Origin: a bacterium
Lineage (GTDB): Bacteria; Myxococcota; UBA727; JAUIJE01
Assembly: GCA_030431455.1 (NCBI GenBank)
Contig: JAUIJE010000001.1
Location: 372,001-436,000 of the forward strand
Length of the DNA: 64,000 bases
Direction of reading: 5' to 3'
How positions within the stretch are numbered: position 1 is the first letter of the stretch; each line of letters starts with the position of its first letter. Below the pieces are notes generated by a model. That model did no database searches, had not been told where the DNA came from, and saw nothing but the letters and a program-made list of their open reading frames with translations. Made by a program: the position numbers and the translations under genes. Of the stretch, positions 21,429 through 34,636 are shown one piece after another.

Positions 21429-21521
21429 GCCGCCCGCCGATGCGCCGGCCGGGGAATCCTGGCCGGCAAAACTTCCGTGGTCGGCCCTGGGGGGTTAAAA
21501 CCGACCACCACGAGGTGTGCG

Positions 21522-24500
21522 TTGCCCCCCGAGTCCCCCCGCCACGAGCGCTACGACATTCGCGACAAGCTCGGTGCGGGGGCGATGGGGGTCGTCTACC
21601 GCGCGTTCGACACCGCGCGGGATGAGGACATCGCCCTCAAGACCATCAGCGAGGTCGACCCCAACCGCCTGTTCCACCTCAAACAAGAGTTTCGGGCGGT
21701 GGCCGACCTCCACCACCCCAACCTCATCGAGCTGCACGAGCTCGTCGTCGACGAGAGCCGCGCGTTCTTCACCATGGAGCTGGTCGAGGGCACTGACCTG
21801 CTGACCTGGATCCGGGCCGACGCGCCCCCGCATCTCATCCAGCACGGCTACGAGACCGAGGCCACGGTCAACGACAAGGTCGGGCGGTCGTCCTCCAAAG
21901 ACAGCGACGAGCCGTCCAAAGAGCGTCCGCCGCCGTCCCCCGCGCCGTGGCACCCGTCGGTGGCCGAGCGCCTGCGCCGCATCTTGCCCCAGCTCGTCTC
22001 CGGGCTCGCCGCCCTTCACGACGCCGGCATCATTCACCGCGACGTCAAGCCCAACAACATCCTCGTCGACGACGAGGAGCGGCTGGTGTTCCTCGACTTC
22101 GGCGTGTCCGTGCACCGCGATTGGCTCGAGCCCGAGGACATGATCGGCGGGACCCTCGTCTACATGGCCCCCGAGCAGTTCATGCTCGGCGAGATCGACC
22201 CCGCGTCGGATCTCTACTCATTGGGGGTGGTCCTCTACGAGGCGCTCACCGGGGTGCTGCCCCACGTCGGGCGCAGCCAAGCCGAGGCGTTCGACAAGAA
22301 AATATCCGAACCCCCGCGCCCGATCCTCGACGTCGTGCCCGACATCCCCGAGGACCTCGCCGCCCTCACCATGTCACTGCTCAGCGCCAACCCCCGGCTG
22401 CGCCCCAGCGCGCACGAGCTGTCGTCTCGTCTCGGCGGCGGGCCCCGGGCGCTGTCCCACCACCGCTTCATCGGGCGCGCGCGCGAACTCGAGACCCTCA
22501 CCCACGTGCACGGCCTGGTGACCCGCACCGCGACCCCGCACTTGGTGCACGTGGTCGGTCCCTCCGGCATCGGCAAGACCGCGCTCGTCGAGCAGGCGGC
22601 CAGCCTGTTTCGGGCCCAAGGGGCGCGGCTGTTGCGGGGCCGTTGCTTGCCCCACGAGTCGACCCCGTTCCGGGCCCTCGATGCGCTCGTCGACAACCTC
22701 AGCCGCGTGCTGGTGGCCCCCGAGGGCGAGGCCACCGAGCCGTTGGACATTCCCCCGGTGTTGGCCCGGTTGTTCCCGGTGCTGGCCCGGGCCTCGGCCC
22801 CCGCCGCGCTGCCCGACGACGTGCGGTCCTTGCCCCCGGCGGATCTTCGGCGCCAGGGGGCGAGCGCCCTGCGGACCCTGATCAGCACCCTGTGTCGACG
22901 ACGGCGGCTGGTGATTTGGATCGACGACATGCAATGGGCCGACCGGGGCAGCTTGCCCCTGTTGGCCGAGCTGTTGCGCGCGCCGCGGGCCCCGGCGGTG
23001 ACCTGGGTGCTCACCTACCGCGACGGCGAACTGCTCGGGCCCAGCGCGTTCGAGGCCTTGGCCCCCGCCGAGGTCCAACACCGGCTCGACCTCGGCCCGC
23101 TCCCCACCGAGGAAGCGGTCGCTTTGCTCGACGACCACATCCCCGACGACCGGGGCCACGTCGACACCTACCGGCAGGCGCTGCAAGACGTGGGGGGCAG
23201 TCCTTTCTTGTTGCTCCAGCTCGCCGACGCCATCGGCGGCGACCCCGACGCGTCCTTCGCCGCCGGGCCGCTGCTCGCCACCGAGTCGTTTTTGGGCCGC
23301 CGCCTGCGGCGCCTTGACGACACCGAGATGCGGGTGATGCAGACCATCGCCCTCGCCGACCAGCCGGTGCCGCGGCCGGTGGTGGCCCGGGCCGCCCAAT
23401 GTGACGACATCAACCCGCATCTCAAAGCCTTGGTGCGGGGGCGCTGGGTGCGCACCGTGCTGTCCGGGCGCGGCCACGCCCTGGTGCCCGAGCATGGTCG
23501 CATCCGCGACGCGGTCCTCGACGAGCTCGCCGACGAGTCGTTGCGCGAGGCGCACCGGCGGCTGGCCGACGCGTTTGAGCAGGAGCCGGTCCCCGACGCG
23601 GCCGCCATCGCCCGCCACCGGGCCGAGGCGGGGCAGCGCGAGCCCGCGGCGCGGTGGGCGGTGCGCGCGGCCCGGGACGCGATGGACGCGCTCGCCTTCG
23701 AGCGCGCCATCGGCCAGTACGAACTCGCGGTGTCGTGCGACGAGACCCTGACCGCGTCGGTGCCTTTTTTGCGCGAACGCGCCGCGGCGTTGCGCGCCCA
23801 AGGCCTGGCCGAGGACGCGGCCCACGACCTCATGCGGGCCGCGACCTTGGATTCCTCGGGCGACTCCTTCGACGACCTGCGCGGCGCGGCCGAGCTCCTC
23901 ATCGGGTCCGGCCGGCTCGACGAGGGCCGGGCGGTGCTCGACCGGGTGCTGCGCCGGGCGGGGGTCACGCCGCCGAGCTCCACCGGACAGACCGTGCTGC
24001 GCTTGTCCTGGGACCGGGTGCAGCTGTGGGCGGGGTTGAAGCGGCTGAAGCTCGACGGGCCCGATGACTCGGTCGAGACCAAAATGTTGCTGCGTCGCGC
24101 GGACGCGTGTTTCATCGCCTCCAGCCTGCTCGGGTTTTTGAACTCCCTGCAATCCTTCGGGGTCCACACCCAGTTCGCGCGGGCCGCGGTGGCGTCCAAG
24201 GACCCGGGCCGCATCGCCCGGGCCATCGCCCTGGATCGGATCTACCTCGGGCCGCTCGGCCGCCGGCCCAAGGGCACCGACCGCTTCGACGCGTTGCTCG
24301 ACGAGGTGCGCCCCTTGGTGCACGACCCCGACGACCGCGCGTTCCTCACGCTCATGGACGGGTACAACGCGTTCTTGTGGGGGCACTTTGACCAGGCGGT
24401 GGGCTTGCTGGGCACCGCCGCGTCCCACTACGGGCGCGAGGGCTACGCCCGGTGGGAGCGCAGCTTGGCCCAGAATCTCCGGCTCGCGTCGCTTGAGTTT

Positions 24501-25205
24501 TGCGGGCGCTTGGCCGAGGTGTGCGAGGGCTACGACGAGTTGCTGGATCGGTTCTTGACCGTCGACGACCGCCTGGCCGCCGACACCCTGCGGGTGGCGG
24601 TGGGGGCCACAGTGGCATTGGCGAGGGACGAGCTCGGGCACGCCCGGCTGCTGCTCAGCGCCTGCAAAGAACGTTGGCAAGAGAGCCTGCCCCCCACCTT
24701 CCGGTTGAGCGTGCTCACCGCCGAGGTCCGCAACGACCTGTACGCCGGCGACCCCGCGCGGGCGTTGGCCAAGCTCGACGGGGCGGATGTGGTGCGCCAA
24801 GAGATGGGCGCGTTCCAGACCGTGCGCATCATGCTCGCCTGGTTGACCGGCCTCGCCGCGGCCCAAACCCGGGCCGCGGACCCGTCGTCCAAGGCGGCGC
24901 GGGCCTCGCTCGACGAGGCCGCCCGCGCCCTGGCCGCGGAGGCCGGCGGCTGGGGCAGCGGGCTGTTGCCGTTGCTGACCGCGGCCCAGGCCGTGGCCGA
25001 CCGCGACCGCGACCGCGCCTTCGCCGCGCTCGACGACGCCGAGGGCCTGTGCGCGTCCCACGGGGGCATGGGTTTGCACGTGTTGGGCGCGGCCCGCATG
25101 CGCGCCCGGTTGCGCGACGAGGACGACAGCGCGTTGCTCGCCCAGGTGTCCGGTTCTGGCGTGGCCGACGCCGCGCGTTACCTGCGGGTGATCACGCCGG
25201 GTTAA
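21522..25205 (+). CDS. Ser/Thr protein kinase fused to AAA ATPase and helical repeat domain
   Basis: About 1227 residues. I place the start at TTG 21522 because GAGG lies six bases upstream; an in-frame GTG at 21477 is the alternative. The N-terminal kinase domain (about 1-290) has the GAGAMG P-loop, the ALKTI Lys, HRDVKPNN catalytic loop, DFGVS and MAPEQF. An AAA/STAND-type ATPase follows (Walker A VGPSGIGKTALVEQ, Walker B LVIWIDDMQWAD). The last 600 residues are Ala/Leu-rich helices, probably TPR-like. Such proteins act as large intracellular signalling switches. The lipoxygenase gene starts 22 bases downstream, so it may regulate, or be co-expressed with, lipid oxidation. Confidence 0.88.
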   Translation: MPPESPRHERYDIRDKLGAGAMGVVYRAFDTARDEDIALKTISEVDPNRLFHLKQEFRAVADLHHPNLIELHELVVDESRAFFTMELVEGTDLLTWIRADAPPHLIQHGYETEATVNDKVGRSSSKDSDEPSKERPPPSPAPWHPSVAERLRRILPQLVSGLAALHDAGIIHRDVKPNNILVDDEERLVFLDFGVSVHRDWLEPEDMIGGTLVYMAPEQFMLGEIDPASDLYSLGVVLYEALTGVLPHVGRSQAEAFDKKISEPPRPILDVVPDIPEDLAALTMSLLSANPRLRPSAHELSSRLGGGPRALSHHRFIGRARELETLTHVHGLVTRTATPHLVHVVGPSGIGKTALVEQAASLFRAQGARLLRGRCLPHESTPFRALDALVDNLSRVLVAPEGEATEPLDIPPVLARLFPVLARASAPAALPDDVRSLPPADLRRQGASALRTLISTLCRRRRLVIWIDDMQWADRGSLPLLAELLRAPRAPAVTWVLTYRDGELLGPSAFEALAPAEVQHRLDLGPLPTEEAVALLDDHIPDDRGHVDTYRQALQDVGGSPFLLLQLADAIGGDPDASFAAGPLLATESFLGRRLRRLDDTEMRVMQTIALADQPVPRPVVARAAQCDDINPHLKALVRGRWVRTVLSGRGHALVPEHGRIRDAVLDELADESLREAHRRLADAFEQEPVPDAAAIARHRAEAGQREPAARWAVRAARDAMDALAFERAIGQYELAVSCDETLTASVPFLRERAAALRAQGLAEDAAHDLMRAATLDSSGDSFDDLRGAAELLIGSGRLDEGRAVLDRVLRRAGVTPPSSTGQTVLRLSWDRVQLWAGLKRLKLDGPDDSVETKMLLRRADACFIASSLLGFLNSLQSFGVHTQFARAAVASKDPGRIARAIALDRIYLGPLGRRPKGTDRFDALLDEVRPLVHDPDDRAFLTLMDGYNAFLWGHFDQAVGLLGTAASHYGREGYARWERSLAQNLRLASLEFCGRLAEVCEGYDELLDRFLTVDDRLAADTLRVAVGATVALARDELGHARLLLSACKERWQESLPPTFRLSVLTAEVRNDLYAGDPARALAKLDGADVVRQEMGAFQTVRIMLAWLTGLAAAQTRAADPSSKAARASLDEAARALAAEAGGWGSGLLPLLTAAQAVADRDRDRAFAALDDAEGLCASHGGMGLHVLGAARMRARLRDEDDSALLAQVSGSGVADAARYLRVITPG

Positions 25206-25227
25206 CGTGGGGCCAAGGAGGGTGCGG

Positions 25228-27414
25228 ATGGTCGAGCGCAGGCTGGACATCAAGGGGCAGGTCGACCTGACGGGCGGGGCAGACGCGTCTCAATACCGGG
25301 TGGAGGTGCGGGACCCGCGCGATGACCGCGTGCTGGGGCGGGGCACGGTCGACGACCAAGGCCGGTTCTTGGTGCGGCTTGTCAATCCCGACCACGCGCC
25401 CCATCCCGCCCAGACCAAGCACGAGCTGGCCAAGCGACACCACGGCATCAGCCGCCTGTTCGGTCTGCACGACGTCGAGGAGAAGCTGCTCTCGCTCGCG
25501 ACCGGGGACCTGGTCGAGGCCGGGGGCGAAGGCAGCGTGGCCGCGGACGAGCTCAAGCGGGACCTGCACCGGCTGCGCGCGGACGTGGCCCACTTCGTCA
25601 GCCTCGCCCCCCACTTCGCGGCCGCGGCCGAAGGCCGGGCCCCCTCGCGCGAACACGCCAACCTCGAGGTGCACATCCACCACCGAGACGATCGCGGGGG
25701 CGCGGCGCTGGTGCACCCGTTGGCCGTCACCGCCGAACACGACGCCCTCGACCTCGGCGCCCTCGGCCGCATCGAAGCCTCCCACGATCCCGACCACTGG
25801 GCCTACGATCCCGACGACGACTTTCCCCGCCGGAAATGGGGCAAGCAAAAAGTGGATAGCCCGGTGTTCAGCGAAGGCTGGACCATCGCTTACCTGCGCT
25901 TCCTCACCGAGCGTCGGGTCCCCACCTTGCTCAAGCCCTACGGGGTGTTGACCAAGAACTTCCTGCACAAAGACGAGCTGCGCGATTACTGGTCGTTCAA
26001 GATGGACATGTTGTGCCTGCCTGGCATCGCCACCGTGTTCGAGGACAACCGCGCCGCCCAGGCTTGTTTCCCCGGCAACGCCAGCCAGAAGGCCAAGGCC
26101 GAACTCGGGGTGCGGTTTTTGCCCGACGACTATCTTGTCACCCGCCTGCTCCAGGGCATGCACCCGGTGATGTTCCGCACCAGCACCGTGGCCGGGGCCG
26201 ACCTCGAGGTCGGCTTTTCCTGGGACGCCTACGAACAGGGCACCGACCTGACGCTCAACAACGTCACCGCCTATTTTGCCTTCGCCGGCGACCCCGCGGA
26301 GATGCCGGCGCTCGCGTTCATTGACGTCGACGGCACCCGCCACACCCCCACCGGCAACACCGCGACCTGGGACGAATGGAACTGGGCCAAGTACCAGTTC
26401 ATGGTCAGCGTGTTCCTCGCCGGCGAGGCCGACTCGCACCTCACCCGCGCCCACCTCAACATGGAGCAGTACGCGGTCCCCATGATGATGCACCTGTCCG
26501 CGGACAACCCCATGCGACAGGTCATGGGCCCCCACCTTCGCGACGTCTGGGGCATCAACAACTTCGGCACCATTCTCATCTTCGGCGAGACCGGGGTGCT
26601 GGCCAAGAGCAGCGCGCTCACCGCCCGCGGCGTGCGGGACCGGCTCAAGGACTGCCTCGGGGGCGAAGACTGGCGCGGCTATCACCCCCGGGCCCCGCTG
26701 TGCGACGCGCACGACTACGCCCACGCCGCCAATGTCTTTTGGTCGGTCGCGCGCGAACACGTCGAGGAGTGGTTCGCCGAGCACTGGGACATCGCCCCCG
26801 ACCGGGACCGGGCCCGGTGGTGGCAAGAAATCGAACGTTTTTCCCGCGACCTCGTGGCCCACGCGGTCCCCTACGTGCCCACCTACGGGGGGGGCGAGGG
26901 CCTTTTGGGCCACACCGAGTGCGCCCCCGGCACCGACCGGCAAGGCCGGGCCAAGACCGGGGCGGTGAGTGGGCTCGAGACCCTCGACGACGTGTTCCAG
27001 GTCTGCACCTACGTCTTGTTCCACTGCACCATGCTGCACGATTGGAGCAACGACCGGCAGTTCGCCGACGGGGGCGACCTCTACCACGCGTCGCTCGGGC
27101 TGCGGGAAAAGCAGCCCCCCACCGACGGGGACTGGGAAGCGTGGTGGGCCCGGGCCGAGCCGCCCCCCGGGGCCGCTGCCTATACATTGTTTTTGTCGTA
27201 CTTCCTGTCCAACCTGCGCTGGGGCTACTTGCTGGGCCGCCCCCCCGAAGAGGCCGCCGAACGCACCGACCACGTCGACCACGACGAAGAAAAACAGATC
27301 GCGGCGTTGCTCAAGGTCATGCACATGCCACGCAACGGCGGCCCCTCCGCGGCGGAGCTGCTCGAAGGCTGGGGCCAACCCCTCGACAACATCCGCGCCC
27401 GCATCAACACCTGA
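25228..27414 (+). CDS. Lipoxygenase-family non-haem iron dioxygenase
   Basis: 728 residues from ATG 25228, six bases after AAGGAGG (an upstream GTG at 25207 is rejected for that reason). Lipoxygenase iron ligands are recognisable: His404 and His409 in a H-x4-H helix followed by a conserved Glu, PHLRDVWGIN matching the family PH-RD--NIN segment, and His604/Asn608 in LHDWSN (family LHAAVN). Expected reaction: insertion of O2 into polyunsaturated fatty acids to give hydroperoxides. The C-terminal residue is Thr, whereas lipoxygenases usually end in Ile, whose carboxylate is the fifth ligand. Residues 1-150 resemble no PLAT domain I can name. It is in one operon with the kinase and the catalase-related gene. 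Confidence 0.85.
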   Translation: MVERRLDIKGQVDLTGGADASQYRVEVRDPRDDRVLGRGTVDDQGRFLVRLVNPDHAPHPAQTKHELAKRHHGISRLFGLHDVEEKLLSLATGDLVEAGGEGSVAADELKRDLHRLRADVAHFVSLAPHFAAAAEGRAPSREHANLEVHIHHRDDRGGAALVHPLAVTAEHDALDLGALGRIEASHDPDHWAYDPDDDFPRRKWGKQKVDSPVFSEGWTIAYLRFLTERRVPTLLKPYGVLTKNFLHKDELRDYWSFKMDMLCLPGIATVFEDNRAAQACFPGNASQKAKAELGVRFLPDDYLVTRLLQGMHPVMFRTSTVAGADLEVGFSWDAYEQGTDLTLNNVTAYFAFAGDPAEMPALAFIDVDGTRHTPTGNTATWDEWNWAKYQFMVSVFLAGEADSHLTRAHLNMEQYAVPMMMHLSADNPMRQVMGPHLRDVWGINNFGTILIFGETGVLAKSSALTARGVRDRLKDCLGGEDWRGYHPRAPLCDAHDYAHAANVFWSVAREHVEEWFAEHWDIAPDRDRARWWQEIERFSRDLVAHAVPYVPTYGGGEGLLGHTECAPGTDRQGRAKTGAVSGLETLDDVFQVCTYVLFHCTMLHDWSNDRQFADGGDLYHASLGLREKQPPTDGDWEAWWARAEPPPGAAAYTLFLSYFLSNLRWGYLLGRPPEEAAERTDHVDHDEEKQIAALLKVMHMPRNGGPSAAELLEGWGQPLDNIRARINT

Positions 27415-27426
27415 ACGGAGACCGGC

Positions 27427-28476
27427 TTGGACTTTTCGGACATCGAGAAGGACATCGAACAGCACTGGCGCCGGTTGGTCGACGGCTACCAACCGGTGGA
27501 CACCGGCGAGCCTCTCCCCGCCAACTACATGGCATTGCCCGCGGCCGAAAAGCGCGCCCTGCTCCAAGACCGGCTGGGCGTTCCCTACGACCACCTCCCC
27601 ACCCGGGCCGAGGGCAACGCCCTGCGCTTGGTGGACAAGGACTACCTCCAGCCGCTGTTCACCCACGCCGCCGACGAACAACCGCCCGCCCACGCCGACG
27701 ACCCCCAAAACCTGCGCGACAAGCTCGTACATTGCTTCGGCGCCGCCGGGTCGATGACCTTCACCCCCCGTCCCGACTCGCCCTACACCGGGGTCTTGGC
27801 CGAGCCCGCCGACGTGATCGTGCGTTTGGCCGACGCGGCCAACCCCAGCGATCCCCACATGCCCTACAACCAGAGCGTGGCGGTGAAGTTCCTCGTCGAC
27901 GGGCGCCCCTCGGTCAACCTGCTCACCCTCGCCGACCCCGAGGGGCAGGGCGCGGACACCAACTTCTTCGCCCGGGACCTGGCCACCTACAGCGGTTGTC
28001 CGTCGTCGTTCGCGCTCAAGGTCTGTTACGTCGCGTTCCAGCGTGCGATCGCCGACCCCGCGATCAGCCACGGCTGCCCCCAAAGTGCGCGCCAATTGCC
28101 ACTGCATGCCCTCGCCGCGATCTCGGGGCACGGCGCCTCCGTGCACCTGGACCGCGTCCGGGCCCCGGTCGGCATCCGGTTGCAGCCGGCCGAGGGGCTG
28201 CGCGGGTGGTGGGCCGAGACCGTGCAGGAACATCCCGGTGAGGATTGGCGGCTCACCCTCGGCCGCATCCCGGAAAAGTCCCATCTCTACGACGTGGTGG
28301 CGGCGACCCCGGCCACCGGCCTGGCCCCCGGGCAGCGGCCCGACCCCGAGCGGCCGCGGGTGATCGGTCGTCTCGACACCCTGACCCGGTTGTTGCCGAG
28401 CGCGTTCGCGGATCGGCGGCTGATGTTTCAGCACCCGTTGCGCACCGAAGACGAGGGCGCCTTCCCCCCTTGCTGA
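27427..28476 (+). CDS. Catalase-related haem protein (allene-oxide-synthase-like candidate)
   Basis: 349 residues starting at TTG 27427, with GGAG six bases before it. The catalase-like core is visible by eye: VHCFGAAGSM around His102 matches the distal-His VHAKGAGAxG segment of catalases. PADVIVRLADA, VAVKFLVDG and NFFARDL follow in the family's order. The C terminus (RVIGRLDTLTRLLPSAFADRR) recalls small catalase-family proteins; I could not identify the proximal haem-ligating Tyr. In corals and some cyanobacteria a catalase-related domain fused to a lipoxygenase converts fatty-acid hydroperoxides to allene oxides. Here the same two modules are separate genes 12 bases apart, suggesting lipid-hydroperoxide metabolism. 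Confidence 0.7.
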   Translation: MDFSDIEKDIEQHWRRLVDGYQPVDTGEPLPANYMALPAAEKRALLQDRLGVPYDHLPTRAEGNALRLVDKDYLQPLFTHAADEQPPAHADDPQNLRDKLVHCFGAAGSMTFTPRPDSPYTGVLAEPADVIVRLADAANPSDPHMPYNQSVAVKFLVDGRPSVNLLTLADPEGQGADTNFFARDLATYSGCPSSFALKVCYVAFQRAIADPAISHGCPQSARQLPLHALAAISGHGASVHLDRVRAPVGIRLQPAEGLRGWWAETVQEHPGEDWRLTLGRIPEKSHLYDVVAATPATGLAPGQRPDPERPRVIGRLDTLTRLLPSAFADRRLMFQHPLRTEDEGAFPPC

Positions 28477-28480
28477 GGGC

Positions 28481-29386
28481 TCAGATCCCGGAGGTCACCT
28501 TCGCCCAATGTTCTTGCAGCGCTTGGTTGACCTGGTCGGCGGCTTCCGCTTGCACCCAGTGTCCGGCGGCGTCGAGCAGCACCCGGTCAAACTCGGGGGC
28601 GAAGGAAAAGTACGCCTCCGATGTGGCGAACCAGGGCCCCAGCGCGCTGTCCTGCAGCCCCCAAATCAGGCGGGTGGGCACGCCGATGGGGGCGGGGGGG
28701 GGCGGGGGGGGCCAGCGGTTGGCCCGGTAGTAGTTCACCCCGGGGATGCCCCGTTCGCTGAGTTGGCGCACGTAGGGGGCCAGGTCGTCGTCGGTGAACG
28801 GCGTTTTGTTGTAGGCGGTGCCGCGAAAAACCCCGTCTACGGTTTTTGCCGGGTCCCGGCACATGAACCACTCCGGCAGCCAGGGCAGCTGAAAAAACAG
28901 CATGTACCAGGACCGCAAGAACTGCCGCGGATTGGTCACCAAGGCACGCTGTAACATGTGCGCAGGGGGGCAGTTGAGCACCGACAGCGTGTGCAGCCGA
29001 TCCCCCAGGGGCCCGGCCGCGGCCCAACACACCGCGCCCCCCCAGTCGTGCCCCACCAGGTGCACCGGTCCGCCGAGGTGGTCGATCAGGCCGGCGAGGT
29101 CGTCGCTGAGCTTGTCGACGGTGTAGTCGAGCCGGGCGGGGGGCGCGTCGGTGCCGCCGTAGCCGCGCATGTCCGGGGCCACGCACCGGACCCGCTCGGA
29201 CAGGGCCGCGAACTGGAACCGCCAGCTGACCGCGAGCTCGGGAAAACCATGCACAAACAGCGCGGTCGGCCCGTCTTCGGGACCGCGCGCGTAGTAGCGC
29301 ATGTGCAGCCCGTCGGGCAGGGTCACCTCGTGTACGGTGGTGTGGTCAGGAAAACTCGCGAGTTCTGGCTGTCCGGGGGCGTTCAT
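28481..29386 (-). CDS. Epoxide-hydrolase-like alpha/beta hydrolase
   Basis: 301 residues if it starts at ATG 29386. An ATG four codons earlier is part of the -10-like TATGGT (29399-29394), which argues for the inner start. Motifs fit epoxide hydrolases: HGFP oxyanion motif (46-49), nucleophile Asp114 in GHDWGG (Asp rather than Ser), acid Asp246, His276 in AGHW, and the cap-domain NYYRANRW tyrosines. The likely reaction is hydrolysis of an epoxide to a diol; haloalkane or fluoroacetate dehalogenase relatives are the alternative. Its stop is four bases from that of the convergent catalase-related gene, so it may act on epoxides made by that pathway. Confidence 0.85.
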   Translation of the reverse strand: MNAPGQPELASFPDHTTVHEVTLPDGLHMRYYARGPEDGPTALFVHGFPELAVSWRFQFAALSERVRCVAPDMRGYGGTDAPPARLDYTVDKLSDDLAGLIDHLGGPVHLVGHDWGGAVCWAAAGPLGDRLHTLSVLNCPPAHMLQRALVTNPRQFLRSWYMLFFQLPWLPEWFMCRDPAKTVDGVFRGTAYNKTPFTDDDLAPYVRQLSERGIPGVNYYRANRWPPPPPPAPIGVPTRLIWGLQDSALGPWFATSEAYFSFAPEFDRVLLDAAGHWVQAEAADQVNQALQEHWAKVTSGI

Positions 29387-29463
29387 GGCGCGGACCATAG
29401 CCCGGGGGCGCGGCGGGGGGCGATCTCCGCGGTGGCCCCCGCACCAGCGCCAGTTGGGCGGGT

Positions 29464-29492
29464 TTGTAGTTTGCTACATAAGTAAATACATG
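29464..29492 (+). promoter_or_regulatory. Candidate promoter upstream of peroxiredoxin
   Basis: An AT-rich island in the 231-base gap between the divergent hydrolase and peroxiredoxin genes. TTGTAG (29464-29469) and TACATG (29487-29492) are separated by 17 bases. A small hairpin GTAG-TTTG-CTAC overlaps it. Short open frames in this gap show no convincing coding character. Confidence 0.4.
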
Positions 29493-29617
29493 AACGAAAT
29501 CGGCCGCTTCCAGCCCCCCGGCCGCCGCCGCGGGGCCGCGGGGGTACCGGGCGCACAATCCCGCACCCCAGGCGCTGGTTTTGCGAAACGTGTCCAGATC
29601 CACGGCATCCAAGGGGC

Positions 29618-30121
29618 ATGCTCGACGTAGGACACCGCGCCCCCGATTTCATCGCCGAAGACCAATACGGCGAGCGCTGCACCCTGGACCAGCTCGTCAA
29701 AGACGGGCCGGTGGTGTTGTACTTTTACCCGCGCGATTTCTCGTTCGTCTGCACCCAGCAGGCGTGCGCGTTTCGCGATGAGCACGAGCTGCTGACCTTC
29801 GCGGGCGCCACCGTGTGCGGGGTCAACGGCGCCACGGTGGAAAGCCACGGCGATTTCGCGGACGCGCACAACATCCCGTTCCCCTTGGTGTCCGACTCCG
29901 GGGGGGACATCGCCGACCTCTACCAGGTCGGGTCGATCCTGGGCCTGGTTCGCCAGCGGGTCACTTACGTCATCGACCGCGACAAAACGGTGCGGGGGGT
30001 CCACCACCACGAGCTGTCCACCCGCCGCCACCTCGATGGGGTGTTCGACACGCTCGAGGGCATGGGGCTCCCGCTCGACGAGGCCCGCACCATGCTGGCC
30101 CGCGCCGGCGGCGCGGCCTGA
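29618..30121 (+). CDS. bcp: Peroxiredoxin of the BCP (atypical 2-Cys) type
   Basis: 167 residues, cytoplasmic, with AAGGGG just before the ATG. The peroxidatic Cys45 lies in FVCTQQAC, with the resolving Cys50 four residues further (C-x4-C), the BCP arrangement. The YPRDFSFVC context replaces the common PKDxTPGC. It reduces hydroperoxides, including lipid hydroperoxides, at the expense of thioredoxin. It lies next to the lipoxygenase/catalase-related/epoxide-hydrolase genes and may detoxify escaped hydroperoxides. Confidence 0.9.
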   Translation: MLDVGHRAPDFIAEDQYGERCTLDQLVKDGPVVLYFYPRDFSFVCTQQACAFRDEHELLTFAGATVCGVNGATVESHGDFADAHNIPFPLVSDSGGDIADLYQVGSILGLVRQRVTYVIDRDKTVRGVHHHELSTRRHLDGVFDTLEGMGLPLDEARTMLARAGGAA

Positions 30122-31885: not shown

Positions 31886-31927
31886 GTGGGCGTAGTAGGG
31901 AATTGTCTTACCCCGGGAGATGCTGCC

Positions 31928-32380
31928 ATGGCTCGTGTGTTCGCTTCGTCGTTGTTGTTGGTGGGTTTTGTGTTGGTGATGTCGGGCTCGACCTGCGGCG
32001 GCACCGGCGGCACGCCCCCCGAAGAATGTTACTGCGCTGAGATCTGGGACCCGGTCTGCGGCACCGACGGCGCGACCTACGACAACCCCTGCAGCGCCGA
32101 GTGCCTGGACGTGGCCATCGACCACCCCGGCGAGTGTGGCGACGTCGACTACAACCCGTGCGCCACCGTGCTGTGCGCGCCCGGCCAAGTCTGCGTCGAG
32201 GTGCAGGTCCAGTGCGTGACCACCCCCTGCTATCCCATCGCCAACTGCGTGGCCCCCGAGCAGGTCTGCGGCGACAACATCTGCCAGGGCGACGACACCT
32301 GCTGCAACGCCAGCTGCGGCACCTGCGCGCCCCCCGGCGCGTTCTGCACCCAGGAAGCGTGCGAACCCATTTCCGAGTGA
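31928..32380 (+). CDS. Secreted Kazal-type protease inhibitor-like protein
   Basis: 150 residues. A signal sequence (about 1-22) is followed by a Cys-rich mature protein. The Kazal domain spans about residues 32-68 with the pattern C-x-C, DPVCGTDGATYDNPC and a closing C. A second Cys-rich module (about 70-150, including DTCCNASCGTC) is of unknown type. Kazal domains inhibit serine proteases of the subtilisin/trypsin type; here the protein may protect the cell from its own or prey proteases. The start is set by the Shine-Dalgarno GGGAGA. The stop codon lies inside the first unit of the palindromic repeat array. Confidence 0.88.
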   Translation: MARVFASSLLLVGFVLVMSGSTCGGTGGTPPEECYCAEIWDPVCGTDGATYDNPCSAECLDVAIDHPGECGDVDYNPCATVLCAPGQVCVEVQVQCVTTPCYPIANCVAPEQVCGDNICQGDDTCCNASCGTCAPPGAFCTQEACEPISE

Positions 32381-32508
32381 TTTGGGTTTGAAATGGGTTC
32401 GTGCGAACCCATTTCCGAGTGATTTGGGTTTGAAATGGGTTCGTGCGAGCCCGTTTCCGAGTGATTTGGGTTTGAAACGGGCTCGTGCGAGCCCGTTTCC
32501 GAATGAGG
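32359..32508. repeat. 3.5 copies of a 42-bp unit, each carrying an 11-bp inverted repeat
   Basis: Units lie at 32359-32400, 32401-32442, 32443-32484 and a truncated one from 32485. In units 1 and 2 the arms are GAACCCATTTC/GAAATGGGTTC around a 16-base centre. In unit 3 both arms change together to GAGCCCGTTTC/GAAACGGGCTC, preserving pairing. Unit 4 has only the left arm. The array begins within the last codons of the Kazal gene and fills the space to the convergent fadH gene, so it may also act as a transcription barrier. Confidence 0.9.

Positions 32509-32524: not shown

Positions 32525-34636
<2,112 letters not shown>

Follow-up and report, generated by a model that had tools for sequence, protein, structure and literature searches.

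The gene pair Npun_R5469/Npun_R5468 of Nostoc punctiforme is reported by Brash et al. (2014) to encode a linoleate 10S-dioxygenase and a catalase-related 10S-hydroperoxide lyase. Under the names Np-diox and Np-cat, the literature describes a 10S-dioxygenase and a haem catalase that cleaves 10-hydroperoxides (PMC9410191, PMC13049297), and a similar two-step logic, in which a lipoxygenase is joined to a catalase-fold partner, is found in the fused allene oxide synthase (AOS)- or hydroperoxide lyase (HPL)-lipoxygenases of corals and cyanobacteria (e.g., 3dy5 and Capnella cHPL). Here we consider a 64,000-nucleotide stretch of the genome of a bacterium of the Myxococcota (contig JAUIJE010000001.1, positions 372,001 to 436,000; the whole stretch is called the window), in which the core of one locus is a two-gene unit of a lipoxygenase and a catalase-like protein. 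As in Nostoc, a dioxygenase gene adjoins a catalase-related gene, and by synteny the catalase-like family is the same, but the Nostoc dioxygenase is a cyclooxygenase-like (COX-like) haem enzyme and that of the window is a lipoxygenase. Unlike the coral and cyanobacterial fusions, the window genes are separate and the catalase-like protein is of a different catalase branch; the initial annotation was right that the modules are split, with a real lipoxygenase beside a separate catalase-fold gene. The coupling of a dioxygenase to a catalase-related protein is already known, and what is new is a lipoxygenase as the partner of this family, together with an unexplained proximal ligand. It is probable, in our view, that the unit forms a fatty-acid hydroperoxide and that the catalase-like protein then cleaves or rearranges it.

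The catalase-like protein had no sequence match in Pfam, NCBIfam or the PDB, and a genome scan with it as single query gave no confirmed relative. The first relatives came from plasmids of Pseudomonas veronii and Calothrix and from one genome of the same order, and a wider genome scan with a three-row alignment led to the fetching of 23 loci of the family, mostly from cyanobacteria, gammaproteobacteria and Bdellovibrionota. Judged by its sequence, the protein is a member of an uncurated family. At 19 of the 23 loci, a gene for a COX-like dioxygenase (animal haem peroxidase family) was nearby, fused or, mostly, immediately adjacent, and a 20th locus (L017) begins at its contig end. The fusions, which make up 8 of those 19 loci, are gammaproteobacterial proteins of 911-956 aa, and the matches to the family among 398 sampled Pseudomonadota genomes, four in number, all lay in frames of 922-954 aa. 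In Nostoc, the catalase-like gene adjoins that of a close COX-like dioxygenase in 9 of the 9 genomes having one and is followed by a GMC oxidoreductase gene, after which a patatin-like phospholipase gene comes next in some cyanobacteria. The published gene neighbours of Np-diox/Np-cat (PMC6307994) agree with the Nostoc loci found here, i.e., dioxygenase and catalase-like gene. Both the family profile and BLAST placed the window protein in the family of genes adjoining a COX-like dioxygenase, which by gene order is the family of the N. punctiforme 10S-hydroperoxide lyase (Npun_R5468); the Nostoc-type proteins are ~25% identical to it. Such close pairing and fusion is a biosynthetic pattern, and it argues against a purely protective unit, in which the catalase-like protein and a peroxiredoxin would detoxify lipid hydroperoxides from the lipoxygenase or from stress, with no specific product. 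A peroxiredoxin gene 1.1 kb downstream and the catalase fold would suit such a role, but none of the other loci examined showed a peroxiredoxin homologue, and we consider it improbable.

Lipoxygenases were also found as partners elsewhere: in 2 of 386 sampled genomes of the cyanobacterial phylum (L054, L055), a divergent, secreted-looking member of the family lies directly downstream of a lipoxygenase. The initial annotation was to be refuted if the neighbourhood were conserved in no relative bearing the lipoxygenase, a condition that does not apply, given this recurrence of the pair in two cyanobacteria. Full-length lipoxygenases of the window enzyme's class were present in 8 of the 386 genomes, two of the eight being paired with a catalase-like gene, and the unpaired genes lie behind a P450 gene, in many cases accompanied by one for a Tle1-like lipase, or behind a patatin gene. 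Among 195 genomes of the window's own phylum, the pair was found in the window genome alone. In the tree, the position of the window protein differs from that of the family members that partner lipoxygenases in the two cyanobacteria, which suggests, with the caution due to long branches, that the pairings were separate events. Chance adjacency of the two window genes was estimated by us at about 1 in 1,000 to 2,000, on the premise of two lipoxygenase genes and one catalase-like family gene in a 7.7-Mb genome, and the spacing of 12 bases on the same strand would be rarer still.

Several further observations were made in these genomes. In two Nostoc genomes (G628:C414 15642-17387; G623:C4 1654-3612), a more distantly related COX-like dioxygenase lies in frames of 944-973 aa, above the stand-alone length, and these may be fusions. 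The CspLOX1-type lipoxygenase genes of cyanobacteria (L054, L099-L102) often lie behind genes for a P450 and a Tle1-like phospholipase, possibly a lipase-P450-lipoxygenase set, and a genome of the window's phylum (L057 9290-14992) has a divergently oriented pair of lipoxygenase genes, one of them encoding a PLAT domain, and a P450 directly downstream. A genome whose record is labelled 'Euryarchaeota archaeon' has the same catalase-like gene as a genome of the window bacterium's order (G013; loci L009 and L016), and the label looks wrong.

An AlphaFold2 model of the window catalase-like protein (pLDDT 78, pTM 0.80) retrieved with Foldseek, as its top match, the catalase-related protein 3e4w of Mycobacterium avium subsp. 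paratuberculosis (E=1e-4, prob 1.0; ~15% identity over the structural alignment), and nearly every other top match was a catalase, with the catalase-fold chanoclavine synthase also among them. To our knowledge, the 3e4w protein has no dioxygenase partner. For a cyanobacterial family member (model pLDDT 83), the significant matches were only 3e4w and the coral AOS-lipoxygenase 3dy5 (E=3e-4). The earlier description of the protein as catalase-related, which no sequence search could give, is supported by the fold. Compared by profile (hhalign), the curated catalase-family protein of the same genome matched weakly (prob 13%), with only the VRLxD...VKFL region aligned.

Among 17 family members compared, the residues invariant in all include His102, Arg133, Lys154, Ser162, Gly173-Gln174, Asn179, Asp273, Arg275, Asp329 and His336. 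His102 lies in a catalase-like distal His motif and Arg133 in a propionate arginine motif, and Asn179-Phe-Phe resembles the Asn...PxFF segment of catalases; from these motifs and the weak hhalign match, we infer that His102, Asn179 and Arg133 correspond to the distal His, the Asn and the haem-propionate Arg of catalases. No tyrosine is invariant in the 17 members, and the proximal Tyr motif (RxxxY) is absent, the window protein ending right after an invariant C-terminal FxH and short of the helix in which catalases have their proximal Tyr. The genome's own PF00199 protein does show the proximal-Tyr segment, with RRPVY. The histidine of the FxH (His336) is the only invariant one besides His102, and would be the obvious candidate for a haem ligand, if the family binds haem. 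That the protein instead works without haem, as a lipid carrier or an accessory dioxygenase subunit, would fit the loss of the proximal helix, the absence of an invariant Tyr and the presence of lipocalin-type barrels among the weaker fold matches, but the invariance of His102, Arg133, Asn179 and His336 speaks against it, and we consider it very unlikely.

The pocket also bears on the analogy drawn in the initial annotation with the coral enzymes, by which the locus would be a split coral-type pathway, the catalase-like protein being an allene oxide synthase whose product the convergently encoded epoxide hydrolase would convert. The 3dy5 match of the family member, the conserved distal His, Asn and Arg, the full set of epoxide hydrolase residues in the window hydrolase and the existence of a lipoxygenase and epoxide hydrolase pathway in Myxococcus xanthus (PMC5760719) all favor such a pathway. 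However, of the residue set of coral allene oxide synthase (cAOS), R64, T66-H67, R102, N137, Y353 and R360 (PMC5617202), the window family keeps the H67-, R102- and N137-type residues, has Lys at R64 and Val at T66, and, its chain stopping earlier, has no counterpart of the Y353/R360 region. No relation to cAOS can be detected by sequence, the family's partners are COX-like dioxygenases and its characterised member (by synteny) is a hydroperoxide lyase, and the hydrolase gene, a convergent one, did not recur beside the related loci examined. Allene oxides, moreover, normally hydrolyse without an enzyme. Because the proximal-Tyr helix and an invariant Tyr are absent from the family, the coral-type reading is not supported, and we regard it as unlikely.

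The product of the upstream gene of the pair is a lipoxygenase, its enzyme class being given by homology and ligands. The Cyanothece lipoxygenase structure 5ek8 (CspLOX1) matched most of its catalytic domain (phmmer E=7e-53), and PF00305 scored 20.9 bits, just under the cut-off. Alignment and a residue check confirmed exactly the iron ligands that had been assigned at the outset, with His404, His409 and His604 kept in 15/15 aligned lipoxygenases and Asn608 in 14/15. It shares its class and ligands with CspLOX1 and the Myxococcus 11-/12-LOX genes, and, as in them, no PLAT domain was found, but it is only ~23-28% identical to the aligned relatives, ends in Thr and lies beside a catalase-like gene, whereas the flanking genes of most relatives encode a P450, lipase or patatin. 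A plasmid search with it gave no matches. Its Coffa-Brash position is Gly447, a glycine like that of the 9R-lipoxygenase CspLOX1 (Gly401; PMC5437038), and by the usual rule this suggests an R-hydroperoxide. In a Myxococcus fulvus lipoxygenase, an Ala-to-Gly mutant had an unchanged main product (PMC6612559). Another contig of the window genome encodes a further lipoxygenase of more typical sequence (L001; G000 contig C4 396863-398203), which has a PF00305 match of E=4e-70, ends in Val and has a GMC oxidoreductase gene and one for a ChaN-like haem-binding protein beside it.

In the mechanism we favor, the lipoxygenase would oxygenate a polyunsaturated fatty acid with O2, yielding a hydroperoxide, possibly of R configuration, and the catalase-like protein, binding haem in a catalase-type barrel, would use this fatty-acid hydroperoxide instead of H2O2. 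The hydroperoxide would then be cleaved or rearranged, and the Nostoc relative, taken as a model, makes a lyase-type cleavage to an oxo-acid and a short alcohol or aldehyde the most likely outcome. The family would here have swapped its usual COX-like haem dioxygenase for a lipoxygenase. The gene pair, the lipoxygenase ligands, the family membership and the partner pattern are read from the sequence itself; haem binding, substrate and product, like any part that the neighbouring hydrolase, peroxiredoxin and kinase may play, we infer.

A number of points weigh against this mechanism. Foldseek TM-scores were low (~0.33) and the AlphaFold2 alignment held 21 sequences only, so that the catalase fold is supported through the consistency of the matches, and the missing proximal Tyr leaves haem ligation as a prediction. 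The lipoxygenase C-terminus (...RINT) is a threonine at the place of the carboxylate ligand, usually Ile or Val, as in most of the aligned relatives (one other ends in Ser); it still offers a carboxylate, and iron ligation by it is possible. Npun_R5468 was placed in the family by gene order and not by its own sequence. Lastly, both window proteins are on long branches (2.2-2.7 changes per site) and share just 21-31% identity with relatives, too little for product specificity to be carried over.

More tentatively, the family might be a catalase-fold branch that has lost the proximal Tyr and holds haem via the His336 of its FxH, and that serves as an exchangeable hydroperoxide-processing module, coupled to COX-like dioxygenases by adjacency or fusion and, on two or more independent occasions, to lipoxygenases. 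Two otherwise unrelated families of fatty-acid dioxygenases, the lipoxygenases and the COX-like enzymes, are linked by this shared and uncurated partner family, so that it can be tested directly which of the two, partner or dioxygenase, determines the product. The absent Tyr likewise makes the haem ligand an easily testable question, and the pair adds to the oxylipin-type chemistry of a bacterial group in which mainly the lipoxygenases of Myxococcus have been studied.

The features of the locus are collected in Table 1.

Table 1. Features of the lipoxygenase/catalase-like locus, in window positions
Feature	Position	Strand	Basis or detail
Ser/Thr protein kinase + AAA_16 ATPase	21477..25205	+	~1227-1242 aa; PF00069 E=8e-43, PF13191 E=1e-24
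Likely ribosome-binding site AAGGAGG of lipoxygenase	25215..25221	+	sequence
Lipoxygenase, Cyanothece CspLOX1 (9R-LOX)/Myxococcus type, 728 aa	25228..27414	+	5ek8 match, alignment, residues
Likely ribosome-binding site GGAG of catalase-like gene	27417..27421	+	sequence
Catalase-fold protein, dioxygenase-partner family, 349 aa	27427..28476	+	fold, family profile, residues
Alpha/beta-hydrolase with epoxide hydrolase residues	28481..29398	-	PDB 5ng7 E=1e-42; residues
BCP/PrxQ-type peroxiredoxin, Cys45/Cys50	29618..30121	+	PF00578 E=4e-33

All five genes of the initial annotation were present with the places and spacings it described. The kinase-ATPase frame opens at 21477, with 21522 as one possible start, and has a monomeric isocitrate dehydrogenase gene upstream; 22 bases separate its stop at 25205 from the lipoxygenase ATG (25228), and 12 bases separate the lipoxygenase stop at 27414 from the TTG start (27427) of the catalase-like gene. 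With such short gaps and plausible ribosome-binding sites, the kinase, lipoxygenase and catalase-like genes look like one transcription unit. A promoter of the sigma-70 type was looked for in the region and not found, and its terminator-like sites are of doubtful weight. The kinase is probably co-transcribed with the lipoxygenase. It has 119 matches within the same genome, a very large paralogous set, and the suggestion of a dedicated sensor kinase was dropped on that account. In a cyanobacterium (L101 8618-10153), a Ser/Thr kinase gene lies directly behind the lipoxygenase, rather than ahead of it as in the window, which may be chance.

The catalase-like gene (stop 28476) and the opposite-strand hydrolase gene (end 28481) converge with 4 bases between them. 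By their residues, the epoxide hydrolase (HGFP50-53, Asp118, Asp250, His280 and cap Tyr165 and Tyr224, the full set) and the peroxiredoxin are genuine. Homologues of the two were not seen beside any related locus examined, and the idea of a five-gene oxylipin cassette was given up for that reason. In M. xanthus, a lipoxygenase and an epoxide hydrolase together yield trioxilins although the hydrolase gene is, by locus number, no neighbour (PMC5760719), so a role of the window hydrolase with the lipoxygenase pair is possible.

Past the peroxiredoxin comes a GNAT acetyltransferase gene, and a 42-base tandem repeat (3.5 copies, 95% match; 32358-32506) overlaps the 3' end of the open reading frame at 31886-32380. 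About 2.4 kb past the peroxiredoxin, on the minus strand (32525-34558), lies the gene of a FadH/old-yellow-enzyme family oxidoreductase (TIGR03997, 413 bits, below the cut-off), and some oxidoreductases of this type reduce polyunsaturated acyl chains.

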